Shown here: piece after piece, positions 1 to 41,521 of the stretch
Numbering within the stretch: the first letter of the stretch is position 1
Layout of the letters: every line of letters begins with the position of its first letter
From: Fragilaria crotonensis
Taxonomy: Eukaryota > Bacillariophyta > Fragilariophyceae > Fragilariales > Fragilariaceae
Assembly (NCBI GenBank): GCA_022925895.1
Contig: JAKSYS010000558.1
Location: forward strand, 1-42,115
DNA length: 42,115 bases
Direction of reading: 5' to 3'
Made by a program: the position numbers and the translations under genes
Notes under the pieces: model-generated
What the model was told of the DNA's origin: nothing
The model's input: the letters and a program-made list of their open reading frames with translations, nothing else
Database searches by the model: none

Positions 1-278
1 ATTGATTGCTGTCGTTGGCACCCACTCATTTTGTTTTGGCTTCAGGAGATCGCAACAGGACTCGTACCGTAGCCAGGCCATCTGAATTGTTGGATTGGGA
101 TCGGCAGGTGTTGTTGGTGCATGACATATGAATGTCTGATCGTCGTGAACACTTTGGCATCATCAAAACGACGAGAACAATAACAACAACAACCAGTTTT
201 TCGAAACATCAAGAAGTAGAACTACTAGAACATCAAGTCGAGCGTTAGCAGCAGCAGCATCCTATTATAGAATTTGTC

Positions 279-1510: not shown

Positions 1511-2052
1511 GAGTAAAATATAGTATATAGGGAAGCGACGATCGCATTGCATGTTTGATGATACCGCACTTCGTCTTTTGCTAGAAGCTCTGCCGTATAG
1601 AAGAATCCAATGTACCCTGGAAAGTTGTCTTGCCCAGGTCGGAGGAAGGATATCACCCACAGTTGTTATTTGATTTGTGGCTTGGGTATAGTGGTACGAG
1701 GCTTTAGGTGCCTCAATGGCCTGCCGGTAGCAGTCGTTGTACTGGTTATCTGGTTATGTAGTAGAGTGAGGGTACTGCAGCCCTATTGCCTTGCGACCAC
1801 TGGTACCAGGTACTAGTACTGCACGACTGTACGACCCAATGATATTCCTGCCCGCAGGCTGCAGTCCAAGTTCAGTACTGGTACTAGTACTGGTACCGGT
1901 CGGAACAGCACACGCATTGACCATGCCACGCACACGGATTGACAACGATACTGGTACAGTACCTGGACGAGTAGTGGATATATGCATAGAGTCAGACAGG
2001 AAATCGGAATTCGATTTCAATCACAGTCGTTCGCGCCAACACATTAGGTGTG
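1511..2052. other. Intergenic, GTAC-rich patch
   Basis: No gene seen. Between about 1740 and 1965 the sequence is crowded with GTAC-containing palindromes (ggtaccaggtactagtactg and similar). This compositional theme recurs elsewhere in the window (8500-8660, 15500-15640, 21360-21420, 38900-39250). The 3' end must hold the promoter and leader of the downstream methyltransferase, but no defined motif is recognised. Confidence 0.5.
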
Positions 2053-3514: not shown

Positions 3515-4774
3515 CGTTAAAGAGAGGCAGTACGAGCTGCAGACTTCTGTTCGACGTACTCCATTCTAGTTCACCAATACACAAATAGACTCTACTACTA
3601 GTGTCGAAACGCACCGTATCTGTTTTAAGGATCGCTTCCCGCCCTTACTCAACTTCAACACGTTATCGAAACAAAACAAAACCTGGCTGGTCTTTATGGA
3701 AGGCCCAGGCATGTTCCATGTCTTCATCATTTCTCGGTAAACTAAGCCAAGGAAGCATTTTGGTCGACCTTCATGGGCCTAAAGAGTCATCTTCGTAAGG
3801 GACTGTCACTGACTTTGGTTCTTGACCAAAAAGATGCAGCATGATAATGTTTCAGTTTTTGTGGTCGGAAATGCAGGCAAGACAAAATGCAGGTATCTGA
3901 GGCTTCAATGAACTCACTGACTTCATTGCCATCCACTTCAAATGAGACAAAAGACATAACTACAATTGTATTGAAAGCACTCTATTAAACTCAATTGTTC
4001 TGCCATACATACCTGTGCGTTGACCAGAATGCTTGTCAAGCATGAAGGTCCTAGGTTGTACATTGATGCATCTGCAGAAGTAAGCAAGGCATTGATTGTT
4101 GCTTCCCATCCTGAATAAAGTCATTTCTATGGGAGGAAGGCAAAAACAAGACATGCTGGGACTCGTTGTGTTCTTAAGTCACAACAATGCAACTTCTGGC
4201 CGAACCTGAGTCGCTTCATGAATTGTTGCAAATTACAAATAAAGCAACAATTTGGTAACATGCTGAGGAAGCTACACATTTGAAGTGTCAAGGCTTCTGC
4301 TGAATGCTTTTTGTTACTACGTGATGAGTGGACTCACCCTGATCTCATTGAATGTGAGAATCCAATCAACAAGGTTCTTGTCATATGGTCACCTGCTTAA
4401 CTATAATACTACAGCAAGAACAACAATACTCTTCATCAACAGCACAAGCAGCTAAACAAGACTGGAGCACAAGTGCAAAAAATGACCAACTGCTACATCT
4501 GTTGTCAGTCTGTGGTGGAACACCAGATAAGTGGACCCATCATACTAGTCGAAAGATTTGTGCTCAAGTGTTCAAATATGATCAAGGTGACACTTTGTTA
4601 TGAGTTTACTAGTATTCTATATTTGTCCTACCTCTGAAGTCACGTTTGTCAACTATCGTCTCAGTTTCTGTGATATGGCTTTCTCTGGAAACGAGTCCCA
4701 ACTGATAGCTTGTTGAGAGATTTAAAAGTACGCCTCAAATCTTCCACGGTGCCAGTCGATGGCAGCAGGCAGCG
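3515..4774. other. Gene-free stretch, possibly upstream part of a decayed element
   Basis: Only short, unconvincing reading frames here. Because the relic at 4775-6240 begins with what looks like the end of a longer polyprotein, decayed upstream domains may lie here, but I could not recognise any. Confidence 0.4.
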
Positions 4775-6240
4775 ATGTTAAATAGATTTCGGGTTTCTTT
4801 GCTTGCGGAAACGATCAATGACCTTCCAAAATATCAACGGCATATATTAACTCATGATAACACCCAGCAGTGCATGGATGATTCAGAAGTGTGGAGAGCA
4901 AGTTGGGAGAATGGTAAACTAATGATTGTGTTGGATGGAGGTTTGAGAGACGTAGCTAAGGGGGACTTTTGGTGGACGATTAGCACGAATAACAACACCA
5001 CTAGTATCTACAAAAGTGCAGGGCCAGTTGATGGCCCCCATGACGTGGCGAATTCAACTCGATGCAAGATTGCGGGATTTGCGGCTCCGATGCTCCTTCT
5101 TATGTTGTAAGCTAGTCACTTTGGAACGAAATACAAGTGTAACAAGTTTTGTTGGGTATGCGATTGTAAATTTGCATTGTCCACCAACGTGGACAAACAC
5201 ACAAAAGAACACGAAAATTGCCGACGCCAACCAGAGAACGTGGACCTTTTGTCGCCGATTCGAGCTATGAAGGGCAAACTGGGCATCCAAGTAGCTAACT
5301 CAGAAGTGGGAAAAAGGTCATCAGAAAGGGAAAACAGGCCCTACATCTCACAATGCATGTGACGTTGAATAATCGAACAGATGAATTGGCCACATGGTTT
5401 AGGGACCATAGAACCAGTGGTCATTTGAGGGAGAAAACTGATCATATTCCAGATGAATGCATTTCTGTGTGTGAAAAGTTGAGGACTGTATACGTTTCCA
5501 CATAGATGGATACCACATCCGTTGTTACCTTCAATCAAGACATCATTGGACCAACAATGTGGGACACACTTGATTTCAAAGTCCTAGGGCAGTTTTGTTG
5601 CTCACTCACACCAGCGAGACAAGTAGCACAGACTAAACTGATGTATGATCAAAGACATACGGGAGATTGACGGCATTGAGTTGCAACAATACGAACTCAG
5701 TCTTTGTTACAAACTGAGGAAACATCAGACCATGTTCTGCAGTGGTGTCAAGAAAATCTGGGAAGAAGTCTGGCTATCCAAACCTACCTTCAAAAATCTA
5801 TGGACTACTTGGGGGCACCATTGGCAGCACAAGCAATTAAAAGCCAGGTTCTGCATTGGGTCAATGCAGAGATAGCGGAAGTTGATAAGTTGATGATTCC
5901 ACCAAGACACGTAGCCAACGTCAAGATTGCATTACATCAAAAATCTCAAATCGGGTGGTCAGCTGTGTAACGAGGATTTTTTGCTGTTGTTGCTCGGATC
6001 GACTTGTCGGCACAACCCAACAATGGTAACAGTGACTACAATTATGATGCAAAAGGGGATCACGTCATGCGGAACAAGGTGATTCTGGCCGCAGTCCATA
6101 CGCTTAGTGCACATGTGGGCAGCTCGGAACCATCACCTACACCATACGTCGTCACTCGCCTGCAGACAACTACGGAATCCAGACTTGTTGGTGGAAATTG
6201 CAAGTCTTCACGAACAGGCACACATGGTAAATGCGGTTGA
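4775..6240 (+). pseudogene. Relic of an RNase H-like retroelement ORF
   Basis: Broken over several frames. In order I see an RNase H-like segment near 4900-5110 (LDGGLRDVAKGDFWWTIS, then SAGPVDGPHDVANSTR), then NNRTDELATWFRDH and IPDECISVCEKL around 5370-5480. Next come a DHVLQWCQE segment near 5730 and a KSQIGW segment near 5950 that runs into a stop. This order resembles the RNase H-like/C-terminal region of a repeated reverse-transcriptase-type ORF that I know from diatom genomes. The match is from memory and not a search. In the intact family the position after STR carries an acidic residue; here it reads CKIAG, so the domain is probably inactive. In-frame stops and frame changes separate every block, so this is a true relic. 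A second fragment of the same family lies at 20170-20564 on the other strand. Confidence 0.6.
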
Positions 6241-8058
6241 TAGACATTTCTGAGAAAGACCACATGAAGAGATAGTAGTGAATGCGAGCTCGCTTCGACG
6301 GCGTTGGTTACATTACATGCAAAAGGCGAGAGCAAAGGATCAAAACTGATGGCTAAAAACAAACGATGATGACAGATTTCTTCCGTAACAAGTGACGACA
6401 AAAACAAAGAGGGGGTTGGAAAGTAGGTCCAAAAGACGTGCGTGACGACAAAGATTATATCGCTACTAGCAGGTACCGTGGATTCTTTTGGATAGTTTGC
6501 CGTACCGGCCGGGGTACACACCTGGTTTTTGACAAAAGGACGAGGACGGTGATCACCCTCTTATTAGGTATGATTTACTTATGTTAAATGAATGATACTT
6601 GATGGTATGGAGAGTGTACTACTACTAGGCTTTGGCTAATCACAGCCTTCCCATCATCTCCTAGTATGTTCTTGCAATTGAAATTCCAGCATGTGCTTCC
6701 TGTGGAGACATTCTTTATTTCGCTGATGAGTCTTGTTCCGCAGAAGAAGCAGAGCAACATACTTCATTGATTGGCTAACAAAGAAGCACAGACAGGAGAG
6801 GTCATACTTAAAACAGAAAGCAAGGGCATTGCATGGGGCAATGAATTCAAATAGAATTGTATGAAGCGATTCTTTCAAATAGAATTGTATGAAGCGATTC
6901 TTTCCTTACTGCAGTGCCAGCAGTGCCAACTAAGATGAAGAGATATGGTTTGCAATATTGTTGTTTGGAGCGACACTCACTTGCTTGTTACATGTGGAGT
7001 AGTTGTTGAACAGCTAACAAGGCTACCAGCACCAGAAGGTGGTGAAAGGATAAGAAAGAGAGACATAATCTCATCCAAGACAATATACGTTTTTCCAAGA
7101 AATTGTTTTAGTTGAGTGCCAACACCAACAAGAACGGTAGCTCATCCAAGCAACAGCAGCTATTGGGGGGACAAGAACACCGGATCCAATTAAACTGCAA
7201 GGAAATGACGTCAGGCCGTACCAATCAGAATGCTCTCCCTATCATGCTACTGTCTTACTGGAGTACTGCATCACCATGGTTAGAACGTGAAGGGGTCTGT
7301 ACTGTGACGTCATGATTGACATCATTTCTTTGCATTCTAATTGAAACCATACATGATTGTCTGACAAACATGCCGCTCCACAGCTTGTTGCTTGTTTGCT
7401 TTGTGATTCCTCAATCAATTGTCATCATTGCCATGACATTATTGGAATTGAAAGCAAGCTTGTTGTCCAAAATTGTTCCATGCATGTTTTTGTCATTTTC
7501 CATAACAGTTTTTGTTTCCTGGTGGCTTGCATGCAGTCCTCAATGCAGGGTGATGGTGTAGCTCATGGAGGAGAATGAAGCAGATAGCAATATACGCATT
7601 AGCATCTGGCTAAAGAACTCATAGAACACGACTGCAAAATGCATATGGTGAATGTTCATCTTGAAATGTTGACAGATTCTGCAAGTACAGGTGCTGGGAG
7701 TCATGCTGGCTATCATGGTAAACTCTGCTCTGCAATGAGTGATTGCAGAAAAAAGAGGAAGTACTACTTAGCATCTGCTCTATAAGTCACTGACAATGCC
7801 CACTCTGTTCCAGGAGTTCAAGTCTCAGTTCAAATCATTTATTCCTTTGCACTGTTATCAAGATTTACAAAACTCCTCCTGATGAGTGAGATGATTGCCA
7901 CATATTCTGTTCAGCTTGAGTTGAGCCGAGAGTCATTGGTCCCATGTCATATGCCTTGCAAACAGAGTACACATTGAGAATCTCTTTCATTTCATGATTC
8001 TTTCTGCTCGAGATGATGTGCGATGAGCATGGGTGCCATGGTGCATCCTGCACAAGTG
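6241..8058. other. Gene-free stretch
   Basis: No supportable gene. The only structured element is a 28-bp tandem duplication at 6847-6902. The remainder is AT-rich to balanced unique-looking sequence. Confidence 0.5.
6847..6902 (+). repeat. 28-bp perfect tandem duplication
   Basis: Two identical adjacent 28-bp units (6847-6874 and 6875-6902; core AATAGAATTGTATGAAGCGA). Perfect identity indicates a recent duplication by slippage or an assembly artefact. Confidence 0.85.
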
Positions 8059-8463
8059 TTCATGGTTCATGGTTCATGGTTCATGGTTCATGGTTCATGG
8101 TTCATGGTTCATGGTTCATGGTTCATGGTTCATGGTTCATGGTTCATGGTTCATGGTTCATGGTTCATGGTTCATGGTTCATGGTTCATGGTTCATGGTT
8201 CATGGTTCATGGTTCATGGTTCATGGTTCATGGTTCATGGTTCATGGTTCATGGTTCATGGTTCATGGTTCATGGTTCATGGTTCATGGTTCATGGTTCA
8301 TGGTTCATGGTTCATGGTTCATGGTTCATGGTTCATGGTTCATGGTTCATGGTTCATGGTTCATGGTTCATGGTTCATGGTTCATGGTTCATGGTTCATG
8401 GTTCATGGTTCATGGTTCATGGTTCATGGTTCATGGTTCATGGTTCATGGTTCATGGTTCATG
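8059..8463 (+). repeat. Perfect 7-bp satellite (TTCATGG)n, about 58 copies
   Basis: 405 bp of uninterrupted TTCATGG with no variant unit. Because 7 is not a multiple of 3 and the unit has no stop in any plus-strand phase, all three plus frames stay open and encode the same heptapeptide repeat MVHGSWF. The minus strand meets TGA in every frame. The long plus-strand reading frames here (8013-8554) are therefore a by-product of the repeat and not evidence of a gene. The homogeneity points to recent expansion or active homogenisation, and real copy number may differ from the assembled one. Confidence 0.97.
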
Positions 8464-9596
8464 TTTAACATTTTTATTATCAAATGCGCGCAGTTGTCAA
8501 GAATATGTACTCGACGTATACCAGTACAACTACGTAACTAGTACCTTCCGGTAGTACTGGATTACTGTTTACACAGGTTTTTCGTAGTACGGTAGTCGAA
8601 ATTGCAATAGAGTAGTACCAGGTACTGGAGTACAAGTACCTCGTTGAACAGCAGTGCTTCGGCGCGTGGTACTGTGATGCTACAAGGCTAAAATGGTAGA
8701 CTGTATAATAGTGATATTAGAAGGCCATGCTGGTGCAACAAGGAGTGCGCTGCGTTGTCTCGAATCTTGCGAAAGAGTCTCACCTGGCCAAAGATAATAA
8801 ATTATCAAGAGTTTACAGTCTTCCAGGAACGCCCGAACACCGCGCTGGCAGTTCCCGAGAAGTAAAATGTGAGAAGGAGGGAATATGAAACATATTATAT
8901 ATGGAGAGCTATATACTTTGTATTTATATTCAAACTGCGCGTCATCCCGGCCCTCTAGAGAATCAACGGAAAACGAGTTCGCCGGGCAGGGCTGACTTTG
9001 TTTCTCGTGTTACTATATAGATTATATGACACCACGCGCATCCACTGCTAGTATCGACAGTACGGGAATACGGAAGAACGAGTGCGGCCGTCTTTCCAAA
9101 ACGTCCTTATTCTTGACTGTGCCAACCCGTCGTCTTTGCATACCATCATGTTCGTTGAGAGGAGGTTTTGCTTGATTCAAAACGCTCATCCCTGCCTGCC
9201 TGCTGCCTGTAGTGTATTGTCTGCTGTCTTGCAGCAAAAGCGACGCAGCCACAGCATCAACCATCGACTTGTCTGTACTCTCTCAACTCTCTGCTGCAGT
9301 CTAGCTACTCTTGGATAATAAAAAAGAGGGATTAGAGTAGATCGAAACAAGTGGGGTGAAAGCACAAGAACATCTTGCATTGGTATCACATTGCAAGCAC
9401 CATCTGATCTTCCACTACCGGTAGAGCTACGGATAGAGTGCTGAACGCTGCAGGGCACGAATACAGAGTTACTGCAGTACCACTGTCCCTTACTTTCCGA
9501 GCATTGGTTATTGATTCGGAGGATTGGAGCAACAAGTGATACACTCGATACGCGCTATATTGAACTGCCGTTGAAGCAACAGCAACAAAACCGAAA
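8464..9596. other. Intergenic between the satellite and the myristoylated-protein gene
   Basis: No gene supported. 8500-8660 is another GTAC-rich patch. The last few hundred bases should contain the promoter and 5' leader of the gene starting at 9597, which begins after a CAA/CAG-rich leader. Confidence 0.45.
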
Positions 9597-12500
9597 ATGG
9601 GAAACGCACCGTCATCCTCCGAAGAAGAAACTGCGGCAGGCAAGGCCAAGAAGCTTGTCGAAGAAGTGCAATCGTCCATCAAGACTTCGATTCGCAATTT
9701 TGATGAATCTCAGTCTGCAAACTTTTTAGATTCCATCTGCGGTCCAATCTTTGACGATGATCCAATGAAACGCAATCGTTCCTATGCCTACTCGGAAGAA
9801 TTGTCGGATGAAGATTCACGGACAGTTAGTGATGGCGATAATTCGACTATGGAAAGTAGCAGGCGAGGGACATCCAGCAATCGAAAGGGAATATCCACAG
9901 AAAGTGGATCCGTTTTTTCACAGAGTGACTATGAAAGCGAAGCCACTTCGAGAGGAGCGACTCCTCGCAAGTTCACGGATTCTTTCGAATCGGAGGAGGA
10001 TTCCTACCTTCATCGCAAAAACAAGGAAATTGAAAAGGTCAATACTACATCGTCGCGCGCACCATCGTCGGTCATGTCCAAACCACTTGCGTCGGCTTTT
10101 GCAAAGCGATGCTACTTCACAAAGGCTGGCATTGGAAAGACGACGCAGCATTATGAAGGTCTTACTCTCACGGGAAATGTCGTACTCATGTTGGCAACGG
10201 CCATGAAACTGAAGGGCTGTCCCACTATTTGCGATGAAGATTTGAGACGAGTCGAACAAACCTATCCCAATCAGTTCTCGAGACTGCCCGATGAACTCTT
10301 GCTCAGCAGCGGGTGGAGACGAATATCCAAGTACTGTCACTTTTCAAACAAGCCAATTCCCGATGGAGTGCCGTTTTTCCGTAAGTTCCTTTTTCGTCAC
10401 ACACTACCTCTCATTACTCCTTAGGATGTACATTGTGAGTGCCACTCGCCTTGGATTGGAATTTTTCTGACATGCCCGCCTCGTTTCTTCACCTTGACAG
10501 ACTCGAAAAAACGTGTTCACCCCCAGGGTGGTTACTATTTTTTATTAGCGGCAGCAGTTGGCATGATCCGACCCAGTGATGTGGAACCATTGACTCGTGA
10601 CACCCTTGTCTTGCTCGAAACGGATTACCCTACCCAGGCCGACGCTGCCCCTTCGTCTCTTGTGCACGATCCGACGGAATGGACGTTGGTGGACAAGTTC
10701 TGCTTCTTTTCTGGAGGACCCATCAACACGGAAGAAGATGTCTACTACCAAGCTGATTTTGATGGGAACCCCATTCACATGCTGGCATTCTTATCTCCAT
10801 CCTTGACACCAGAGGAACTCTATAAGTTGACTCAAGACAATACGGATGAACCTGGCCTCAAGAGCGTTGCTGCCGTTGAGGATGTAGAGTCTGTGTATGA
10901 CTTGACCGAACGGGATTTTGATGATTTAAAGCTGTATCATTTGGGACCATGCCGCGCGCTGTACGTATGACATGTTTTTGTCTTCAATATTGGGACCTGC
11001 CAAATTTCCTCATACTCACTTTGAACATACCTTGTTCCAAACAGCCCACCCTACATCTTGCAACCACAAGCATGGATCAAGGTCTTGCCCCCGCACTTCC
11101 TCGCTGCCAAGCATCGTGCACTCATGCGTGCGCAACGTTGGGAAGACATCCATGGTCCTTCCATGTCCATGACATCGAGTGCTGTGTTATCAAATCAAGA
11201 TTACAACTATGGAACGTTGCCAATGAATCCATTAACGGTTCAAGTTGCACCCCCTGTTCTTTCGCCTGCAGCGGCTGGTTTACCCTTGGGAACGCCCCAG
11301 TCTCCTGGTATGGTATCTCCGGGCATGATACCAGCCTCTGCCGCCTTTTACGGTTCGCAAGGAACGCCTATCGTGGAAGCAAGTTCTCCAAGAAGCAATC
11401 AATTTTCGAGTCCGAAGGCAACTAATCAAAATGGAGCTGGATACTATCATGCCACTCCTCCGTCGCCTCCTAAACCTAGAGAGATGGTTTCGTCACCCGA
11501 CGATACGGAACAATCGACATCGGTGGACGACGGGTCGTTTCAACGGGAAGTGGAAGAAGAAGGGGCGTTTGTTGACAAGACTCTTCCCATTGATGAAGCT
11601 ATGGCACTTCGATCTAAGAAGCAGAAAGCACCTCCGCCTCCGTCGCAGCGCGGTCCTATATCGCCACCGGGGTACCGTCCATCCGATTTGCAGGGAGCCA
11701 ATGCAAAGATGGATCCACCAGACGATGAACCGCCGTCACTTTCAAGGGATGACATTCCCGACGATGAAGACTACCAACCGTCGCCTACTTCATACTACAC
11801 CAGCCCTTCTCAGACAGTGGAAGCGTCCAGTCCTGCAAGTTACTATCCAAGTGGTGGTGAGTTCTCGCCCGAACAGAATCCAGAGGGTTCGGAGTACCAC
11901 TCAAGGGAAGACGAGTACTACGATTCGCCGGAACATCTAGGTAACAATCCTTACCATCCTCCTCCTCCAGGAGGCGAGTACTACCACCAGGACGAAATGA
12001 ACCTGTCTCCGGAAAGTATGCATCGTCCTGAAGTTTATCATAGAGATCCTCACTACCAGAGTCAGCCGCATCCTCATTACCATCACGAAGAGCCGCACCC
12101 CGACTATGGTCACCACGGCGGCTTGCATCCGGATTATCACGACGTTCCACATGGGCAGTATTACGGAGAATCCCGTCCCAGCTACGACGACGCCGACCCT
12201 CCTGCTTATCACGATCCAGCCCATACGGGCGCCTACCACGGACCCGACCATGATGGCTTTCACGGGGAATCAGTATCACCGGAGATGTATCATGGTCAAG
12301 GAGCGCCTGAATACTACCGTTCACCGGAAGCTGATGATTACAACAATACCGAAAACGAACCGCCCATGGATAGGTATGCACTGGCATCATCCCCTACCAC
12401 GATGCCGTCATCTCCGAAATCGGAAGTGACTCGCTCCACTGGCGGATCGGATCATTCGCAAAGTTCTGCCATGCGCACAGCTCAAGACCTGTTGAGACGA

Positions 12501-13151: not shown

Positions 13152-14893
13152 TCATTGAATGACATCCACCAAAAAATCGAAAACATCCGTCCTCTGGATG
13201 GCTTCCTTAATATCTTCCTTCTGCAACGTCCGGCGCTTATGATGTTGCGAAAAGGACCAGCTTCGCAAGGTCAATTCCAGAATGAACAATTCGCACGCCT
13301 TGGCAAACAATACTGGCGCTTCGGCCGAAATCATGCGCACATCCTCATCGGATTTCATGATGCGCTTGATGCGAGCGAGAGGCAAATCGTTGTGGGTCTT
13401 GAAATCTTGTTCCGTGCTGGCGGGAGGGAGCTGTTGGACCAAATGGAACTGTTCGGTCCAGAATTGGGACAGCGTGGCGTGGAGTTTTGCGAGGAATTGG
13501 GGTGATGTTGCAGATGGGGCTGGGTTGTCACCATTGTCCGTGTCCATGGAAGTAACTGAAGTGGTTACCAGAGCAGACGAGGGAGTGGTTGTTGTGGCTG
13601 CGGTCACAAGCGATGTTGACGTTGATGCTGCAGTTGTTGATGTGACTGATGTGGGTTTGGCCTTGGCGGAAGCACTGACGGGTGTGACGGCATTTTGTTT
13701 GCGAAAGGTGGCTTGCAAATCCTCCATTTGCTGCTTGTGAGTGGCACCTAGCTTCTCCGAAGTGGGACCACCGGCGGCAGCCGTCGTGGCAGCAGCGGCC
13801 TTTTCGCGCTGATGCTTCTTGACCATATCGTGCTGCTGTTGCTGCTGTGCCGTGGTCATTTTGCTCGTGTCGCCCTTGTAAATTCCGGCCTGAATCTGTG
13901 CTTGGGTGTGAGCATGTACCAAAGCTTGTGCCTGGAGTTGAATCTGGGTCTGAACTTGCTGCGGTGTTCCAGTTGTCTTGCGTGCGTGAACAATTGCTTG
14001 TGCTTGAATCTGAGAAAGGGCTTGAATTTGTGCTGCATTCATGGGCACCTAGTGTATGTGAATCGGGAAGGAACAAAAGGGACAACATTGTGTGAGCGTC
14101 GCACGAGACAGAAACGAATTCAAGTTCAAAGGTGATTGTGACGTACCAATCCATCACCTCGTGACTTGGCAGCCGCAACGACGGCCTGCGCTTGAGCAGC
14201 AGCCTGAACCATGGCTTGCGCTTGTTGTTGAATTTGTTCTGGAGTAATGTTGGCTTGGTGACCTCGACTCGCGGCGGCCTGAAGTTGTGCCTGGAGCTGC
14301 TGTTGGAGTTGTTGTTGAATCTGTTGCTGGAGAAGATGTTTCTTTGCCGGGGGAGGATTCGCTGCCGCTGCATCTCCCGAAGCCGGACGTTTCTTGTCTG
14401 CAGATGCGTCTTGATCTGTCGGTACTGCCGTGGTAGTGGCTGGTGTTGGTGTTGGAGTAGTTGCATTCGTAGTTGTTAATGTAGTGGCTTCCGAAGTCGC
14501 TGTGGTGGTGGGAGCAGTTACTGCTGGTGGAACTACTGTTTCTGCTTCTGGTGCTGCGGCTTCGCCTGCTTCCGCAGGTGCCTTGTCATCAGCATTGGCA
14601 ACTGGAGCCGTTACAGCAGCAGCGTCGACAGGAGTATCTTCTGCAGCAACTTGAGGAACTTCAGCTTTGGCAACTGCAACAGCTTCGGACTCTTCTTCGA
14701 CTTGATCTTCTACAGTTGTTGTCGCAGTGTCACCACTGACCTTGTCATCGGAAGTTAGAGAGGCAGTAGGTTCTGTCGGTTCTGACGTGGTCACTGTTGT
14801 GTTTGGCGGTTTCGTTTCATTGGCGTCTGTTTCTGCACCAGCTTCGGCAATAGTGACAGTGTCCGTCTGCATTGGATCATCAGTGTCACCCAT
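13152..14893 (-). CDS. NF-YC: NF-YC (HAP5), histone-fold subunit of CCAAT-binding NF-Y (2 exons)
   Basis: Minus-strand exons 14893-14147 and 14048-13152; the phase-0 join gives 547 aa. The C-terminal 78 residues (470-547) are the NF-YC histone fold: LPLARIKRIMKSDEDVRMI, SAEAPVLFAKACELFILELT, the KRRTLQKEDI loop-helix and TDVFDFLVDVI. An FW.EQ helix and DFK.H lead into it, as in NF-YC. In the family this subunit dimerises with NF-YB and then recruits NF-YA to bind CCAAT boxes. The N-terminal 440 residues are low complexity: acidic Ala/Thr/Glu-rich, then long Gln-rich stretches (QQQIQQQLQQQLQAQLQ and similar) spanning the intron. The first ATG of the open frame is at 14893; codons further upstream in that frame lack an ATG. 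Oddity: the histone fold sits at the very C-terminus, with nothing after the last helix. Confidence 0.95.
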
Positions 14894-28540: not shown

Positions 28541-29197
28541 ATGAATCTTCCACGCGACGAGCAGCACTACTGTAGCGACGATGACAACTTTGACAGCGAT
28601 AAATTGGACTTGAGCCTTGCCGTGCGATACGAGCCATTACGAGACGCATATTTCAACCCATTCTATGATGAGGTACCACCAAACGACGGTCTTGGACCCA
28701 ATGTTGTCGCTGCAGCTGCAGCTGATTCGAAACTACAACAACCGGCCGTTCCGACTAAACAACGCCAGAAACTTGCCAATCATCTTTGCAGTCCAAAGTC
28801 AAGAGCATTATCACGATCGCAATCACAATCACAAATGATACAAAAGTCGCAGCATCGATCATTGAATCATGATGGTGGACGTGGTGATCGAGATCGTAGT
28901 CGTGGTCGACGAACAGAATCCATGCGTCACATGAATATGAAGACGACTCCCGGCAGTCGATCCAATTCGACACAGACACTCTTGGCACAAAATACTCGGA
29001 GGGATACTGTTGTTGCTGCCACAAACACTCATCAACACGCCAATCACAGTCATGAGGATTCCAACCGAAACGCTCCTCCGAGCACACCGTTATCATCATC
29101 TCTGGCAGGATTGCCAACAGAATTACCGTCACCTTCGCCCTTGCCATCACCCACTGTTGCAGAAGTAGATCTTCCTAGATATACGTTGAGCGTTTAA
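28541..29197 (+). CDS. Ser/Arg/His-rich protein of unknown function, truncated by the copia LTR
   Basis: ATG at 28541 with an open frame of 218 aa. The first 60 residues are acidic and aromatic (DDDNFDSDKLDLSLAVRYEP, YFNPFYDEVPP). Then follow a Ser/Gln/Arg-rich stretch (SRALSRSQSQSQ, RGDRDRSRGRR) and a His/Asn/Pro/Ser-rich tail. No domain is recognised; the composition suggests a disordered, perhaps RNA- or nucleus-related protein. From 29155 the frame is LTR sequence: the last 14 residues (TVAEVDLPRYTLSV) and the stop come from the copia element, so the host gene is cut in codon 205. Its original 3' part is not certain. 41522 onward begins a short open frame (MNESCHECGIFGQHTRRVSH) that would be in frame if joined directly, but this is weak. 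An unseen donor splice site before 29155 could also exist. Confidence 0.6.
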   Translation: MNLPRDEQHYCSDDDNFDSDKLDLSLAVRYEPLRDAYFNPFYDEVPPNDGLGPNVVAAAAADSKLQQPAVPTKQRQKLANHLCSPKSRALSRSQSQSQMIQKSQHRSLNHDGGRGDRDRSRGRRTESMRHMNMKTTPGSRSNSTQTLLAQNTRRDTVVAATNTHQHANHSHEDSNRNAPPSTPLSSSLAGLPTELPSPSPLPSPTVAEVDLPRYTLSV

Positions 29198-29419
29198 CTC
29201 CGTATAGTCTATCTCCAGGGGATCAACCGATGTTGAAAAATAGTCGGAAGTTGCTAAACAAACTTCGGTCCTACTTAACAGGATTGTTTCGAGAAAGTGA
29301 TCTCGTGCGCAATCCTTTACTTTCTACTTTCAGCTTTTGCTTCGTTTCGGCCACATGTCCCTTTACTACGTCTGCCCACGTGGTTCTACTGGCATGGTCC
29401 TTACCGCTTACTTCGTCCA
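29155..29419 (-). repeat. Copia 3' LTR (left copy)
   Basis: 265 bp, TGTTGCAG...CGTCCA on the plus strand (TGGACG...CAACA on the element strand). The pol reading frame appears to run into it and stop at 29273-29271, so the C-terminal tail of Pol is LTR-encoded. No clear polypurine tract precedes it on the element strand. Confidence 0.85.
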
Positions 29420-32400: not shown

Positions 32401-34137
32401 GGTATACGTGCGGCAGACGGTAGTCAGCTCGTGCAGGATGGTGGAGCGTGTGCGGTCGGACACGAGACGCACCGTGCGAAAGAAAATGTTGCGGGAGATG
32501 GTGTGGAAGAAAATGTGCCCTTGCACAAAGAAAAATCCACGCACAGGGTGACGTCGCGGTGATGCTCAAGCACGGAGGGGGTAGAGCCACGGCAGTGAAA
32601 TTCGGGGCTCGCGTGCAACACCGGCGCGCGTGGTCTTCCTTTGAGGGTTGCGATGTCAGGCCCGTAGATCGTGAGCGCACGCTTGGCGTCCAGAGAAGTG
32701 ACGGGGCAGTTCCGAATACACCCACTGTCGAGGATACGCTGGAATTCGGCCTCGCTGGGGCGGCCGATGGCGCGGTAGAGCGTGCGTGCCATGTCGGCGT
32801 TCGCAATGTCGCGCCGACTAAAAAGTTTCTTCTGTTCCGCCACCGTGGACACCAGAGTATAGGCACCAACGTTATTGCTACTATTACTCGGAAAATATAC
32901 GTAAAGCCCGCACTCGTGCTCGACGAACTTCATGGTGGAGCCATCGAGGCGGTGGACGTGCATGGCAGGCTCGGCTATCGTGTCCATCGTAACACGGCAC
33001 ACCTTGCGTACGTCGGCGAGCGAGAGGATATTCGCTATGGACGCCGGATTGAACCACACGGGTCCGAGGTTTGGGAAATCACCCACGAGCGTGGAGTCCT
33101 GAACCCTCCGTTCGTAACCGCCCTGAGAGTACGGTCGCTCGGCCGAATGTTGGTGAGCATGTCGGGGTTCCTGAAAACCGAGATCGTAGATTGCGAGTCA
33201 AGCAATATCCACGATGGGTCGATTGCGGTCGTCCCCTGCGCCAACATGAGTCCGTACTGCAGGAGGGTGGTTCCGGAGGTGGTGCTGCTCGCCTGTTCGT
33301 CCGGACAGTCCGATGCATAGTGTCCAGTGTTGTTGCACCTGTAGCACGTGATCCCTTCGTGCGTCACGCCATTCGTACCTGGCGTGCTCGTGGATCGCTG
33401 TGCGAAAGTCATGGCGCTTCCTTCGTTCGCAGCGCTCGCTTGCGCAGGCGTCGTGCTGGACTCGCTGGCGACGGCGCTGTTCCGGGCACGGTACGTGGCG
33501 TTCACAGGCGTCCGGTAGTTCACGAGCAAGCTGTAAGCGGACGTGATGTCGGTGGGATACTCATCCTTACCTTTACTGTACTGGTTCGCAAGATCAGCCA
33601 CTAAGGTTCCGTATCTCGTGGGATCTGAGCCGCGAATGAGAGCGGCGGCCAGGGTGCAGTCACGTGCAATCCTTTGCCCTTTCCTCGGCGGTGTACATGG
33701 TTCCGTCGTCCTTGGTCTCCGGCGCGAGCTTTGATTCAGTACCAGCGTTCCGCCGTGGTACTCAATCGTATCGGTGTGGCTCTTCATGGCCTCCAAGTAG
33801 CTGTCGGCGCTCTGTCCCTGCTGCTGTCTGCAGTTGAGGAATGCAGCGGTGGCGTCCAGCAGAGATGTACCCGTTGTGTTTTGCATCGAACTGCATCGTG
33901 ATCGCCTTGATGTTGTTGAGCAACCATTCGCAGTCGTCTTCTTTCGCACTGGCTGCGTATCCGTCCAGGGACTTCACCTTAGCCTTCATGGCTTCGCTGC
34001 ACTGGCCCCAGATGACGGCCTGAAGTGCTGCCAGGTTGCCTCGTAGCACTCGTTTGCGCTTCGCGTAGTCACGTATGTCCTCGTTCCAGATTGCGAGGTC
34101 AGTCTCGTCTGCGTCTGGTCCAGGTCTCATGCATCTA
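29271..34137 (-). pseudogene. Copia gag (C-terminal part)-pol, several frameshifts
   Basis: From right to left on the minus strand: remaining gag (34137 down; KRKRVLRGNLAALQAVIWGQ) and the zinc knuckle CYRCNNTGHYASDC (33346-33305, CX2CX4HX4C). Next are the protease site LLDSQSTISVF (DSQS at 33199-33188), a GAG-pre-integrase region (near 32820-32630) and the integrase core (32560-32110, HGDHEFACIRDDLHPF). A Pro/Ser/Thr-rich linker with low-complexity Asp codons (31400-31900) follows. RT comes next (30840-30385; DIAGAYLKAY, KAIYGCVQSALLWYK, YVDD at 30471-30460), then RNase H (29990-29600; SWVDASYAVHPDMKSHTGG, RHINIRYFWIKDR), ending at about 29271. Frame changes occur near 33880, 33090, 32550, 31560, 30670, 29900 and 29590. 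As written it cannot make a full polyprotein, but the motifs themselves are intact. Confidence 0.85.
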
Positions 34138-34156
34138 AGGGGTGCCAAACCAAGTC
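34138..34156 (+). repeat. Left terminal inverted repeat of the DNA transposon
   Basis: AGGGGTGCCAAACCAAGTC; pairs with 40770-40752 with one gap and about three mismatches. Preceded by TA. Confidence 0.7.
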
Positions 34157-34282
34157 GGCTCTTGGATATGAAAACCAATCATCTTTGATATGATATTTTT
34201 TGCTCATAATGTTTACCTAAATACAGGTAAAAACTTAGGACTAAAGAGCTTGTACATCATGTGTATGAAGTGGGTTTCGTAT

Positions 34283-34490
34283 TTCCTGAACTCGAAATTT
34301 ATTTTTCCTGAATTTTTCATCTCTTGCATAGGATCTCGTACTTTGTATTCCTGAGCTCCAAAATTTCAAATCCTGAAATTCAATGACTCATTTTAACTAG
34401 CTTCCAAGTGGAATTCCTGAGCTTTGGGACTCAAAATATCTGAACTATACCACTTCTTCATTTGTGATCATGAATTTCAATTCCTGAATC
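34283..34490. repeat. Left subterminal cluster of TCCTGAA motifs
   Basis: Six TCCTGA(A/G) units plus a degenerate one in 208 bp, all in the same orientation. Mirrored by the cluster near the right end, as expected for transposase-binding sites. Confidence 0.65.
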
Positions 34491-34683
34491 TGACATCCGA
34501 AAAGAAGAAGTTTCCTGTGTAGTGTGTATGAAGTAATCACCACAGTAGTTCTGAGCTGACATTGTTCATATAATTGACATACATGTCACGCATTTTAACT
34601 TTTGTTGGATATTAGTGTTAATGTGCCTATTCGTGTGGCTTTGATGAAGCATTCTACTATTCATACTAAGTGTCTGATCAATT

Positions 34684-36217
34684 CTAAACTGCCTCCACTT
34701 TCACTTCACTGTAGACAAGTTCAGAAGCAAGATGCCTGGAGTAGTTATCATCCTCCTCATTAGAGTTGTCGTCAAATACATCCATGCGCTTGTGTGGGCG
34801 TTTCTTACCCTTGTCATCAAATTGTTTCCTGACCCCCTGGCCAGACTCCTTTTTCCTTCTCGACAGAAACATTTTTAGTAGTTCCTGGTTGAATGTTTGG
34901 GCTGATTTCTTTCTATCATTCTTGATGGCCATGTATAATTCATCGTATTTCCTCATTCCAGCCTGTGACCAACCACAGCCTCCCCCATTATCATGAGCAC
35001 CCTTGTTCCTGGAGAATGTGTAAAGTGGTGGCTGCGGAACATGAGAAAAGATTGGTCAGAATTTAGGATGTGGTTTTTTCATTTCACTTATCATAGTGTA
35101 ACTTACGGGTAGGTTTTTGTTGTTGTCATCTGTCCATGTACCAATTTGCTGTTTCCAACAACAAGTGATAACAAAGCAAGTCAGTTAGTTCCTTGTTGTT
35201 TGTTCTGTGACAAACCACTCGGATAAACTTACCATTTTCTCTGTCTTTACTAATTCGGCAAACCACCTCTTCCCATAGTTGATCAGGCACAGCAAAATGA
35301 ATGCTTCATCACTTATGGACAGGATTTTCTTGCTCCATACTTTCCTGTCAGTTGTTGCACAGTGGTTCTCCATGTTGTTGATAATGTTATTCCACTTGCT
35401 GCTGCCGAGTAAGTGTCTATGATTTGGGCATTGTAGCAGATGTTATCCCTCATCTTGAGGAGGTAACTGGTTTCATCCTTGCATCCACTGTACAGGCTGT
35501 GTCCATGTGTTCCTAAATGGGAAGTGAATCCCTCTGAATGCAAGGTGTTTGATGTTGAAAGCAAGTGGGTGTGAGTATGCTCGGGACTTGGCAAAGTACA
35601 CCCACTTCAAATCCTCACCATTGAATTTCATTTGCATGTTTTTTATTGCATTGTTCCGAAGATCAGTGTGTGTTTTTACAACTATTCTCCGCATCCCAAG
35701 CCACCAGTTTTCGGTTCCTCGAATGTTTGTGTACTTCATGATAAAGCCACAAAGTGTTTTCTCATCTTCACTGAAATGAGAATGATAGTCTTTTGATAGA
35801 ACTTCCAAATAGAGAACACGTGTTTTTTTCATGCAAGTCTTGATCATACTGATTTGATCTCTTCTGAGATTTCCGTCATGCTCATGTCCATTAAGCTGCT
35901 TAGCCCTGGAACCGATGATGTTAGTTGGCTGTCACTTGATTCCCGACTTTAATAGTTGAAGGTAGGGATGGTGGATTTCTGATGCATGCTTCCAATAGTT
36001 GAAGGTAGGGATGGTGGATTTCCGTATGCATGCTTCCATCCTTGTTTTGCATCCATTTTCCATGGCACCAACTCCTCCTCCTTGTTGTCACTTTGAATCA
36101 GATCATTGGGATCTGTGGTCACTATTGCACGCCTTTCATGAACTCTCTCCTTTGTTTCCTAGAGCTGGGCTTTAAGGCAGTGATGCCTGCTGTTGTTTCC
36201 TGTGGCATTGATGCCAT
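34684..36217 (-). pseudogene. Transposon gene, minus strand, unknown family; spliced, a few frameshifts
   Basis: Reads from 36217 (MASMPQETTAGITALKPSS) through TTDPNDLIQSDNKEEELVPW and NGHEHDGNLRRDQ. Then come RGTENWWLGMRRIVVKTHTD (about 35730-35670), DETSYLLKMRDNICYNAQII and WSKKILSISDEAFILLCLIN, and after two introns GGGCGWSQAGMRKYDELYMA and a Lys/Arg/Asp/Asn-rich tail ending at 34684. Introns: one between TEKM and QIGTW (donor GTAAGTTTATCC near 35233, acceptor near 35152) and one at 35032-35106; both have GT-AG ends. Frame changes near 36125, 35910, 35490 and 35390, one of them inside a 43/44-bp tandem duplication. I remember similar proteins, with NWW..(M/L)(K/R)RIVVKTHTD and GW(S/T)..G...Y.EL blocks, as repeated hypothetical proteins of diatoms, but know no function. 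It may be the transposase or an accessory factor. Confidence 0.55.
35951..36037. repeat. 43/44-bp tandem duplication within the transposon gene
   Basis: Copies 35951-35993 and 35994-36037 begin AATAGTTGAAGGTAGGGATG and end GCATGCTTCC, differing at two or three positions. It falls inside the minus-strand gene and duplicates a PSLPSTI-type peptide while ending one frame. Confidence 0.85.
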
Positions 36218-36439
36218 GGTCGTATTTGTGCTTGCTTGTTGTTGGAAAAACTTTGATGGTGCACCAAATTTTGAACACTGGAAATCCTTTTTGTGGGATA
36301 GTATTTTGCACCATTTGAATTTTGTACCAAGTACCAAGTTCGTAGGTAGGTTCTACACATTCATGCAGAGGTTTTGAATTTTGAATTCATACCACACCCT
36401 CCTTCATTTTTACATACACCAAAAATGTACCAAAAGTAC

Positions 36440-38390
36440 ATGTACAATTTGAATGCATGCTTTCCCAAAATTCTGTGCTGGTGTGCAGCAGTGCATGACA
36501 TCTGAGATAAAAACGGTACCGAAGCCGCAGCCGGCCGATTTTTGCAGAGGCTTTTGGCCGCAGCCGGCCGTATGCCAATATGTGAGCCTGGCCGTACCCG
36601 TCTGCAGTCCGACAGTCCCTGCCTGTACCCGGACCCGGCCGCAGTCGTAAGGAAGTACAGTACATAGTACAAACATAGTACACAGTACTGTACTGACAGT
36701 ACGTTGTCAGCAACCACCGTACCCGTGAAAATGACAGGTGATCCGCCCTTACCCGCGATTGGCCGAAAAGATAGGAATCGACCGGAGCCGGCCGGGACAG
36801 AAATAGTACACGGACCGCAGCCGCCCAAATCACGGCCAGCCCGCGTTTCGGGCCGGTTGCGCTAACGGCCCCGATGTCATGCACTGGTGTGCAGTGAATC
36901 TGTGCCCTGTCATCTTTGACATCTCATGTTCAATTCACTTGTCCCTTCAAAATGTTGTCCTCAAAGGCACCCTGCTCTTCTGTCAAAAACCCTTCTGCCT
37001 GAAGTTCAACAAGAAACCATTTTCCAATCAAGCAGCATATACACAGCATATTGATAGAAACATCGGGTGCTATAATTTCATTGTGAAGAAATCACACCTT
37101 GCAGCAACACATGGTGCTTCTGTTTCACACCGTCGCCGTCTTCATGAGGATGGGAATGTCACATGCACAAGTAACAAAAGGCCTGCTGCCCTTTTAAGGT
37201 GACATTTGGTGAATGATCCCTGAATGGATTTTGTTGGCACAGACAACCTTCTGCAGTACAACCTTCTGCAGTCTCCGGCTGGCAATGGTGTGGAAGTTGA
37301 AAGCACTTCTTTTGAGGATATTGAGGATTGCAACAAAAGTGATGATTTGTCCGTGTTATGTGATGACCCAAACATTCTTACCTGTACCAGCAATTCTGCA
37401 CTTGATGAAGATGTGGAAGCCCCATCATTTTGTTCCAACTTCATGTATACTACCGATCAGAAACGCACTGTTTCTCTCCTCAAGATCCTGGACCATGCCA
37501 ATGCACCCAACTACACTTTGGTGAAGTTCTGGAGGCACGCCTCTGCATCTGCTGATAATTATTCTTACAACCCAGTGGGTGGACTCTCACGTGCAAAAAC
37601 GTTGATGCCCTAATCAACTCAGTTTGTAATGGGAAGAAACTGCTTCCCTTTGTACAAAGAGTGGATGTAGATCATGGCTCTCCATCTGATGTGATAGGAG
37701 GAGTGGAGTCGGCATCAGCGACAACACTTTTATCACACAGTGCCCATGATGACCTTACTCGACAAAGCTTAAGGTGGCAAGCGAGCATCATTCACTTCTG
37801 ACAGAGATTGTATACTAGTACACTCTGAAAAGAGCAAAACCAAGAAGTCCATGGGCACAATGCGCGGACTCATGCAGATGCTTCCAAGCGTGAAGTGCGA
37901 AGACAACTCATCAACATGTACAAAATTCATGCTGTGCAGAAGTTACTCCATCAAGATATTGGCAATCATGATCAGCACATAAGCTGTCACAAAGAATTGG
38001 TTCTCAGCCAATGCTTCCATTTTCCAGAAAGCTAGCTACCGAGGATTAAGCAGCGCACTGCGCATCCATTTGAGATTATTTCAACAACAGTGAATTTGGC
38101 TTTGGCCACAAGTTCCATCCAACAGTACGCGATGGCTACTACACCTCCCAATGTGGAGCCCATCTGTGTGAGTCAAATGCCCCTTTGTCATAGGCACGTA
38201 AAATATATTTGGTTTTTTGCTGGCATGGATTGGGAGAGGAAGTGGCATCAGTACAGTAGCTTGAGGAGCTTTGCAATCATCCGGTTCCCTCCACCTTTCT
38301 TGATGCTTTGTCTGTACTGGAATAAACGTATGAATTGTTTGTTGGCTGTTTTTCCTGGCAGGGCAGGGGATGAATTTACACCTCATTCAT
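36440..38390 (+). pseudogene. Transposon gene, plus strand, with a C2HC zinc-finger-like motif; split by the MITE and frameshifts
   Basis: From 36895 the frame reads LCPVIFDISCSIHL, then a zinc-finger-like segment CQKPFCLKFNKKPFSNQAAY..HIDRNIGC (C-x4-C...H-x5-C, 36980-37070). After a frame change come MYTTDQKRTVSLLKILDHAN (37445-37500) and NYSYNPVGGLSRAK. After another come KNVDALINSVCNGKKLLPFV and QRVDVDHGSPSDVI (37600-37690). Pieces near 38090-38300 (FGFGHKFHPTVRDGYY; MPLCHRHVKYIWFFAGMDWE) probably belong to it, but stops intervene. The block order resembles a repeated diatom protein with FMYTTDQKW.VSLLKLLD. I associate that with DNA transposons, from memory. If the MITE and one 8-bp duplication are removed, the frame is open back to an ATG at 36440. 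The C-terminal half is decayed, so this copy is probably not autonomous. Confidence 0.5.
36489..36886. mobile_element. hAT-type MITE, 398 bp, with 14-bp perfect TIRs and 8-bp target duplication
   Basis: TIRs CAGTGCATGACATC (36489-36502) and GATGTCATGCACTG (36873-36886) are exact inverted repeats. The 8-bp sequence GTGTGCAG lies directly outside both (36481-36488 and 36887-36894). An 8-bp target duplication and TIRs beginning CAGTG are the hallmark of hAT elements. The inside is GC-rich with repeated CCGCAGCCGGCCG-type motifs near both ends in both orientations, and a GTAC-rich core (36655-36710). It encodes no protein; the long minus-strand frames across it (36361-36884) are by-products of its GC content. 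Confidence 0.93.
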
Positions 38391-38953
38391 AGCAACTGCT
38401 GGTTTGCGAGAGACTTGGGACAGTGATGGATTGTGCAACATTTTGCTGGTTTAAATAAGAATGATCTTGCAACTGGCTTGTGTGTATACAACTCTTGAGC
38501 ATGCAAACAGACAACTGACAAACAGAACCTATACCGGTAGATCAACCTGGTTTGATTCACTCATATCAATGAGAATCTCTCGCAGGTGACCGAATAAAGA
38601 TTCTGAAAGTCTGATTGCCTTACATGCTCAATCGAAGCACACAAACAGAAGAAGCACATTTTCCATCAAAGCACAACAAAATGAGGCACTCAACATTCAT
38701 TGTCACAAGCAGCCTCCTAAAAGAAAAAGCAGAACAAAGGCGGGACAATGTGAGATTGAATGCAAAAGAAAGAACAATAGTACCAGCCTGCCTGTAAGCA
38801 ATACAATGAAGCAGCAGCATACTGCTGCCAGCGTACTGTAGAAGTACATCGGGATGAAGGTGCCATGACTGGACAAGAACAATGACGTATCTTTGTCTTC
38901 AACTGGACGGGAACATCAGCAGCTGTACTAGTACTGGTGTACAATGCCATCAC

Positions 38954-39240
38954 CACAGTACTGTACAATGCAGCAGTGTCATAGTGGGAGGAGGGGAGAT
39001 CAGTAGAAGTACTACTGGTCTGTAGCCTCAGGCTACTCCGAATACTGCAGTCCATTGTCATGAGTACTGTAGGTAACACAGTACTGTACAATGCAGCAGT
39101 ATCACAGTGGAGGAGTGCACTGGAGTACTGGAGTACTGGAGTAGTAGTACTGCTGGTTCACCGTAGCCTCAAAGATACTCCAAGTACTACAGTACTACAG
39201 TACTGCAGTCGGTGATCGGTGATACCAAAATGAGTACTGT
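38954..39240 (+). repeat. Diverged direct repeat, two copies of about 115-165 bp
   Basis: Copy 1 (about 38954-39067) and copy 2 (about 39076-39240) share in order ACAGTACTGTACAATGCAGC, AGT.TCA.AGTGG.GGAG, TGTAGCCTCA or GTAGCCTCA, TACTCC, TACTGCAGTC and ATGAGTACTGT. Copy 2 is longer through extra GGAGTACT and AGTACTAC units. It lies in the gene-free right arm of the DNA transposon. Confidence 0.75.
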
Positions 39241-39287
39241 GCGGGAGGCAGTACCCACACAACAGGAGCACCTCAAAAACTCATCAT

Positions 39288-39322
39288 GAGTGTTGATTGA
39301 TTGAACAAATCAATCAACACTC
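39288..39322. repeat. Perfect 15-bp hairpin
   Basis: GAGTGTTGATTGATT (39288-39302), loop GAACA, exact reverse complement at 39308-39322. Stem is AT-leaning. It could be a terminator-like or foldback structure; no gene ends beside it. Confidence 0.85.
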
Positions 39323-39699
39323 AAACAATCACCAGGAACAACTCACCAACAAGGAGAGCAAAGTGTGCTTGGTGGGAAGAGGAAGAAGGGGCAAAGGTGC
39401 CGAAGAATGGAGTATTCAATATGGGGTGACAGCAAGTGGTGGAGTTCACAAAACAACGAACGAATTGATGTGATACTTCGTACAAAAATTCACAGGTAGG
39501 GTTCTACGAAGCGCAATACCATGGCTGCATGAGTTTGCATTTTCGAAGCCAGTAGAAACGTACAGCGTGCACTGGTATTGGTGATGAAAGAATAAATCTG
39601 TGTTTATGACATATTCCACCTACAATACCTTTTCTACGTAAGATCTACAGCGTAGTATCATGTTCTCTCTACGAACAAACCAGAAGTACTTGTAGTGTA

Positions 39700-40540
39700 T
39701 TCATACCTGGTACAATTGTACGGAATGCCGTTCGGATCGTCTCGCATGCGCAAGAACGGTGTAAAACGCGCAGACACTTGGCATCATTTGTCATACGAGT
39801 AGCTACAGTACGCAATACACCACCTTACCATGTACATGAAGCACCGTACCAGTACCATTCCGTTAATAAACAGTACCTGGTATGACTCCGTACACGACAC
39901 CATAAACCGCGCCATCATACCGTATTCCACCATACCATAAGAAAATGCACTATAGACAGTACACTACACAAGAACTGTACGTACTGAGTACCACCATAAA
40001 ACTGACCGTATCGCACCAGAAAAGATAGAAGGACTAGTAGACTGTACTCCAGTACGATAGACTCCGTTCCACAAACACACACAACGCACAACAACGTACG
40101 GTACTATGTATGAACCATACCAGGGCTTGTAGTACGCCACTACGCCACTAAATGCTGATACACAAACCATGCAGCACACCATACGATACACCGCAACGCC
40201 TGGTGCCATGCACAACAAGCATACACAATACAAACAAATATACACCACCATCCTTCATACTACAACATATAACCCAGTGAGCGATAGACGCGATAAACCA
40301 TACTACCATACTTCGTAGAACGTAGACCGTCTACAGTAGACCATGAAATGTGCACCATGCTTGTAAACAATAATAGAACACCGAATATTGCACCGAATAC
40401 CGTATGCCAGAAACTGTAAAAGCTGTATTACTCGTATACTGTATGGCGCACAGAAGCAACACTCCGCAACAATAACACAATCTACAATACACCATGCTCC
40501 AGTACATCGTAAACAGCGCATACAGTACCAGCATTTTTAT
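39700..40540. other. Strand-asymmetric, A+C-rich low-complexity block
   Basis: About 840 bp in the transposon's right arm where the plus strand is rich in A and C and poor in G, with recurring ACCATAC, TACACCA and CGTAC words. Minus-strand frames here (for example 39964-40251) are compositional and carry no recognisable domain. Confidence 0.6.
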
Positions 40541-40565
40541 TGATGTCGAAATTATGAAGAAAAAG

Positions 40566-40710
40566 CTCAGGAATAATACTGCAGTAGTTCAGGAGTGAAA
40601 AATTTTCTTCATAAAAATGAGGAAACTGCAAACTTCCAAATCCTGAACTAAATAAGTTAACCTGAACAAAACTTCAGGAATCCTGAACTACATTTGGGAA
40701 TCCTGAAATT
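40566..40710. repeat. Right subterminal cluster of TCCTGAA motifs
   Basis: Seven (T)CCTGAA or inverted (T/C)TCAGGA units in 145 bp, in both orientations, including a back-to-back pair TTCAGGAATCCTGAA near 40673-40687. Counterpart of 34283-34490. Confidence 0.65.
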
Positions 40711-40751
40711 TTTCCAATACATATGAGAAAAAATTCTTGTATCAACTATGG

Positions 40752-40770
40752 TACTTAGTTTTGGCACCCT
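40752..40770 (-). repeat. Right terminal inverted repeat of the DNA transposon
   Basis: Read on the minus strand AGGGTGCCAAAACTAAGTA; followed on the plus strand by TA (40771-40772). See the left TIR. Confidence 0.7.
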
Positions 40771-40772
40771 TA

Positions 40773-40942
40773 GATGTGGGCTTCTCGAGTGTGGGGAGTT
40801 TCATCTCCGTGGCAAATAAGGTTGCAAGGTCCTCGGCATACTTGAGGTTCTTCTTCGCGTACCCTTCGAGGGCTTCTACTGTCTTTGCATACTGTCGCCG
40901 GTCGGTCTGCTCGTCATAACACTCGAACACGTTGCCGTTCAT
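40773..40942 (-). pseudogene. Copia gag, N-terminal part, cut by the DNA transposon
   Basis: Starts at the ATG at 40942 (MNGNVFECYDEQTDRRQYAK) and runs through GYAKKNLKYAEDLATLFATE to KPTS, where the transposon begins. The rest of gag continues at 34137 on the same strand and in the same frame. Beyond 40773 the open frame ends in seven residues and a stop supplied by the transposon. Confidence 0.85.
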
Positions 40943-41261
40943 CTCGGTTGTCGTTCTTTAAAACCTGTGGTTCTTGTGCTCGGTGGCTCGCCCGCTTTGC
41001 TGGCTCTGCCGCTTTCCGCTACGGTTCCGCTGTTCACTGCAACCCGCTCTGCCTCCGCTTCTGCCTGTCTCTGTGGTCAAACCACTCACGCTCGTATCTC
41101 CGGCTGTGTTATTGCTGCTCATTATGGCATCGTCTGTATTTCCAGGTTGTTCGGGGCCCTCCAGGTGTTTGTTCCGTTGTCGGTGCGTATGTGCACTTGG
41201 TCGGGTATGAGTTCGTCAACCGATCTCTCTTCTTCCATCTAGTTCGAACCTTCTCAAACAA
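40943..41261 (-). other. Copia untranslated leader between 5' LTR and gag
   Basis: 319 bp. A primer-binding site should abut the LTR at 41261. The sequence there on the element strand is TTGTTTGAGAAGGTTCGAAC, which lacks the usual TGG start, although GGTTCGAA resembles a tRNA T-loop. The primer could not be identified. Confidence 0.45.
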
Positions 41262-41521
41262 TGTTGCAGAAGTAGATCTTCCTAGATATACGTTGAGCGT
41301 TTAACTCCGTATAGTCTATCTCCAGGGGATCAACCGATGTTGAAAATAGTCGGAAGTTGCTAAACAAACTTCGGTCCTACTTAACAGGATTGTTTCGAGA
41401 AAGTGATCTCGTGCGCAATCCTTTACTTTCTACTTTCAGCTTTTGCTTCGTTTCGGCCACATGTCCCTACTACGTCTGCCCACGTGGTTCTACTGGCATG
41501 GTCCTTACCGCTTTCTGTCCA
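41262..41521 (-). repeat. Copia 5' LTR (right copy)
   Basis: 260 bp, matching the left LTR base for base except for a few indels: a missing A in an A-run near 41345, a missing TT near 41468, and small differences in the last 15 bp. The outer boundary is placed at the CA of GTCCA. Confidence 0.85.

Follow-up and report, generated by a model that had tools for sequence, protein, structure and literature searches.

An internally deleted Plavaka-type DNA transposon and its three-gene long relatives in the diatom Fragilaria crotonensis

The CMCT group of DNA transposons comprises CACTA/EnSpm, Mirage, Chapaev and Transib, and the target duplication of RAG1/Transib is 5 bp. Fungal Plavaka elements are placed within this group, and PlavakaB has CATCA..TGATG ends with 2- or 3-bp duplications, according to excerpts of PMC12730594. 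Outside fungi, EnSpm-Plavaka elements are named in the green alga Auxenochlorella and Plavaka repeats in Amoebidium (passages of PMC12633428 and PMC11244446), and Ginger DNA transposons are described in part of PMC2836005 as carrying an Ulp1-type protease, a precedent for that part of the element analysed here. In this study, a 42,115-nucleotide stretch of Fragilaria crotonensis DNA (contig JAKSYS010000558.1, hereafter the window) was compared with the 62.1-Mb assembly of this freshwater diatom (881 contigs). The element near its right end (hereafter the window copy) is, with high confidence, a defective, non-autonomous cut-and-paste DNA transposon that is related to Plavaka and belongs to the CMCT group.

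The terminal inverted repeat (TIR) pattern, allowing at most one mismatch, matched the genome 119 times (55 and 64 by strand) and the reversed control gave 0 matches, bearing out the proposal of an earlier sequence-only reading that this is a multicopy DNA transposon. Among the 100 matches listed, at least 34 elements were paired by hand with ends 6.6-12.7 kb apart, comprising 14 of 6.7-6.9 kb, 4 of 7.3-8.0 kb and 16 of 10.8-12.6 kb; 32 matches, including closer pairs on C21 and C405, were left unpaired. The inverted ends recognized by the sequence-only reading are real, but its TIR of about 19 bp from position 34138 was too short: the TIR is 24 bp long and starts with CATCTAAGGG at 34132, 6 bp further out. 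Its form in other copies is CATCTAAGGGTGCCAAAACYAAGT, and the element ends read CATCTAAGGGGTGCCAAACCAAGT at the left and, inward, CATCTAAGGGTGCCAAAACTAAGT at the right. In the ends examined, which were the best-scoring of 40 hits per side plus one, CATCTA was outermost in 21/21 left ends and TAGATG in 30/30 right ends, with one mismatch further inward in two of these 30. Because this terminus is common to the examined ends, the TA next to the shorter TIR, formerly taken for a target duplication, is part of the TIR.

A 2-bp duplication was found in 18 of 23 paired copies, with a chance expectation of about 1.4, while a 3-bp duplication occurred in 0/23. As the C512 and C694 flanks are identical, the figure becomes 17 of 22 if that insertion is counted a single time. 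The 18 matching pairs carried TA (6), CA (4), TG (3), TC (2), AA, CG and AT, so TA flanks, expected by the earlier reading at each copy, were present at only six, and the window copy has TG; this is not the TA target duplication of Tc1/mariner elements. Further, the window flanks were joined with one TG and queried against the genome. Thirteen matches were obtained, of which four ran uninterrupted across the whole query (100, 100, 99 and 97% identity), four were the C512/C694 flanks themselves, two crossed the junction at 73% and three were short. All four near-identical empty sites were read directly and carried a single TG at the joined flank; therefore the TA duplication claim is wrong. These results confirm that the target duplication is 2 bp, being TG for the window copy.

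The sequence-only reading named no transposase signature in the window, because that region is deleted from the window copy. The long relatives encode three proteins: a transposase of about 980 aa, a gene C protein of about 1,430 aa, and the NWWLGMRR protein (gene A). Long relatives and a homologue scored 31.1, 40.7 and 42.7 bits with Pfam Plavaka (PF18759), above its gathering cut-off of 26.3, and no other transposase family, EnSpm included, was matched in the Pfam scans. The modelled transposase has a RAG1/Transib-like predicted fold (predicted local distance difference test score, pLDDT, 81) and ends in a BAH-like C-terminus. A putative catalytic DDE triad, D319, D425 and E732, was invariant (55/55); in the predicted structure, D319 and D425 lie just after strands and E732 on a helix. 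Between the second D and the E, an H(3-4)H motif (H708, H712) was present in 55/55, and the second and first Cys of a C(2)C motif in 55/55 and 37/55, respectively. The gene with a C2HC finger and a MYTTDQKRTVSLLKILD block was rightly assigned to the transposon by the earlier reading, but covers only residues 5-243 of this transposase.

Seven long copies of about 11.8 kb fell into two groups, with 99.7-99.9% identity within and 95.1-95.7% between groups. Compared with their majority sequence B1, the window copy matched positions 1-3155 in pieces at 83-91% and positions 9608-11859 in pieces at 68-87%; 6.45 kb of B1 is absent, and 681 bp without a match stand in its place. No match to gene C was found in the window copy, and none to the three element proteins in 38377..40776. 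Between gene A and the transposase remnant lies a 398-bp nested miniature inverted-repeat transposable element (MITE), which we take to be hAT-like from its features. At least 44 stretches in the genome matched this MITE. When 40 of 47 candidates were scored and their positions compared with the element ends, MITE-matching insertions, full-length in the query, were located inside 15 other copies of the transposon (C511, C694, C658, C521, C34, C549, C599, C482, C402, C563, C186, C42, C154, C702 and C836), or 16 with the window copy. These 15 copies measure 6.7-6.9 kb from end to end, and the transposase hit list includes no contig that carries one of them. The common nested insertion suggests that the 16 copies descend from one deleted ancestor that multiplied, which needs transposase in trans.

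Two divergent coding regions are present in the window copy, as had been read from its sequence. Their linkage was followed at twelve diverged loci, chosen for a nearly stop-free best stretch 51-63% identical to P0001, the long-form transposase. In 11 of the 12, gene A was encoded on the same strand as the transposase and about 5.8-8.6 kb past it, the remaining locus, C307, being at a contig edge; gene C was convergent behind the transposase in 11/11 loci checked (C147 and ten 2-kb stretches, C307 left out). Thus both partners were near the transposase in 11 diverged loci of the genome, some of which are probably copies of one family. In detail, the diverged relative at C147:11131-23587 matches all three genes, and its transposase frame runs uninterrupted for 967 aa. 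Its apparent bounds are CATCTAA..TTAGATG with a TA duplication, spanning 12.5 kb; the right end was chosen by eye, and the ends showed no inverted repeat of greater length. Gene A occupies the left end in the window family and the right end in C147, transcribed outward in both. The NWWLGMRR protein had no known domain in domain searches, and as a query it found five proteins; the gene C protein has GNAT-, SENP/Ulp1- and papain-like parts. We infer the functions of the helper proteins and of the BAH-like domain from fold and linkage only. Taken together, the TIRs were not confined to this locus and the genes were not found apart without such ends. The earlier expectations that both proteins belong to the element and recur together held good in this genome, as did the expectation that this explains diatom hypotheticals (at least one, the annotated F. 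crotonensis protein MHU86_11663). A separate observation is that P0123, an F. crotonensis protein named Transposase IS4 (precomputed Pfam match, PF13843), starts with a gene A piece; it is perhaps a gene-model fusion on C34.

Subterminal TCCTGAR motifs, counted on both strands, numbered six in the left 420 bp and six in the right 260 bp, against shuffle means of 0.21 and 0.10, and 0 in the 5,965-bp interior of the window copy, where shuffles gave 1.5. In the long form, 6 of 18 motifs were interior; the motif is thus enriched toward the ends, not restricted to them. The arrays reported earlier at both ends were confirmed, but they do not mirror each other, as all six left motifs are forward while the right ones are three forward and three reverse.

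Several observations count against a defective Plavaka relative. An uninterrupted full-length transposase stretch was present in 0/7 fetched long copies, whose frames may be broken through decay or through errors in the long-read assembly. P0001 has His in place of the first Cys of the C(2)C motif, five of 23 pairs (C402, C521, C55, C69 and C836) had no 2-bp match, and the diatom ends depart by one letter from the CATCA..TGATG termini of PlavakaB. Gene A in the window showed no clear coding constraint, which speaks against a working role, and deletion in the 15 other MITE-bearing copies is deduced from their size. The evidence for mobility, too, comes from sequence comparison.

That the element instead represents an undescribed superfamily with TA target sites, close to the possibly undescribed family of the sequence-only reading, would agree with the window copy alone, in which no named transposase is seen and a TA directly adjoins the shorter TIR at either end; since that TA belongs to the common CATCTA terminus, the empty sites give TG, and the transposase of the long relatives has a Plavaka domain and a predicted fold like that of RAG1, we give this almost no credence. 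Subterminal repeat arrays and CA...TG ends are also CACTA-like features, and a canonical CACTA/EnSpm element with CACTA termini and 3-bp duplications, rather than a Plavaka relative, was also weighed. It is very improbable given ends of CATCTA, the 3-bp count of 0/23 and Pfam matches to Plavaka and no other transposase family.

How close the Plavaka relationship is leaves more room. That the element forms a CMCT lineage of its own, a sister of the fungal PlavakaA and PlavakaB and inside neither, is a real possibility, although we lean somewhat against it: the CATCTA rather than CATCA ends, the BAH-like domain, the GNAT/SENP/papain-like partner and gene A argue for it, as does the fact that "BAH", "Ulp1" and "protease" (and likewise "diatom") occur nowhere in the PMC12730594 text, whereas the Pfam score exceeds the Plavaka cut-off, and ends and duplication are near those of PlavakaB. 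Transposons are known to pick up host genes, and gene C might accordingly be chance cargo outside the working set; its convergent position in all 11 loci checked, even if some are probably one family's copies, makes this unlikely.

For the Plavaka-related element, a mechanism can be proposed. A DDE transposase made elsewhere would bind the 24-bp TIRs, probably aided by the TCCTGAR arrays, excise the element and insert it at a target site cleaved with a 2-bp stagger. As the window copy has no transposase past residue 243 and no trace of gene C, it would depend on a fuller relative to mobilise it in trans. For full copies, one can speculate that the transposase is steered to marked chromatin by its fused BAH-like domain, that the GNAT/SENP/papain-like protein counters silencing by removing SUMO or in some other way, and that gene A acts as an accessory factor of the TnpA kind. 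A bolder proposal, which we regard as doubtful, is that diatoms hold a separate RAG1-fold transposon lineage with a three-protein machine: a chromatin-reading BAH transposase, a GNAT/SUMO-protease/papain-like protein dedicated to disarming the silencing machinery of the host, and a conserved accessory protein, transcribed outward, that binds the TCCTGAR arrays.

These analyses document the ends, target duplications and empty sites of a Plavaka-type transposon in a diatom, and assign two diatom protein families that had lacked an explanation to a single element. The interesting part is the helper proteins and the BAH-like domain: with a BAH-like domain on a RAG1-fold transposase and a SENP-like partner, chromatin-mark reading and action on SUMO-based silencing become testable. 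RAG1, which cuts antibody genes, offers with the RAG2 PHD finger a parallel for a chromatin-reading transposase.

Coordinates of the window copy and its parts (TSD, target site duplication; ORF, open reading frame)
Feature	Position	Strand	Basis
Whole transposon copy, internally deleted, Plavaka-type family	34132..40776 (6,645 bp)	.	Ends common to other copies; empty sites
TSD TG, left	34130..34131	.	Single TG at joined flank in four near-identical uninterrupted sites
TSD TG, right	40777..40778	.	Paired copies and empty sites
Left TIR	34132..34155	+	Against other copies: one extra G, one A fewer
Right TIR	40753..40776	-	Compared with other copies
Left subterminal array, six TCCTGAR	34284..34488	+	Motif count
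Gene A (NWWLGMRR protein), split by introns or frame breaks into several pieces, outward transcription	34684..36056	-	tblastn of P0121, 36056-34957; C-terminal ORF 34684-34956
Nested MITE, presumably hAT-like, 398 bp, TIR CAGTGCATGACATC, 8-bp TSD GTGTGCAG	36489..36886	.	Between gene A and transposase remnant
Remnant of the transposase N-terminus (P0001 residues 5-243), without catalytic core	36963..37696	+	tblastn
Deletion region, no match to 11.8-kb form, replaces its positions 3156-9607	37696..38376	.	blastn against majority sequence B1
Right part, matching long form in pieces 38377-38763, 39258-39601, 40484-40776	38377..40776	.	Against B1
Right subterminal array, three TCCTGAR and three reverse	40566..40707	.	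Motif count

Near-identical, long terminal repeat (LTR)-like direct repeats at 29147-29362 and 41254-41468, about 12.1 kb apart, flank the element, and a zinc-knuckle, gag-like ORF on the minus strand adjoins it; therefore the element appears to have inserted into an LTR retrotransposon of F. crotonensis. Elsewhere in the window, fibrillarin (986-1510; Pfam, 270 bits), a methyltransferase (2393-3514; Pfam Methyltransf_31) which we take to resemble arsenite methyltransferase, a tandem repeat with FMVHGSW units in two frames (8023-8541) and a histone-fold protein of CBF/NF-Y type (13152-14048) were observed.

Among known systems, RAG1/Transib shares only about 10% identity with the diatom transposase, and the diatom element differs in its 2-bp duplication and C-terminal BAH-like domain. 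EnSpm/CACTA elements resemble it in subterminal repeats, CA...TG ends, large size and accessory genes, whereas the diatom element has no CACTA terminus, 3-bp duplication or EnSpm transposase Pfam match. The Ginger transposase is integrase-like, whereas the diatom protease forms one protein with GNAT and papain-like parts and accompanies a Plavaka transposase. Pfam scans of ORFs and of gene C homologues gave no match to a TET/JBP family, a point of difference from PlavakaB. As far as excerpts of PMC12730594 describe it, PlavakaB shares with the diatom element the Plavaka transposase domain, the CATC start, 2-bp (or 3-bp) duplications and H(3-4)H before the last E; the diatom element differs in CATCTA instead of CATCA, its host, and the three genes with BAH-like and GNAT/SENP-like parts. 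The passages on Auxenochlorella and Amoebidium (PMC12633428, PMC11244446) likewise name Plavaka outside fungi, as in the diatom, and a three-gene, BAH-bearing Plavaka layout was not found in the literature searched. The element is thus no undescribed superfamily; it is a relative of Plavaka that lives in a diatom and has a layout of three genes with a BAH-like domain.
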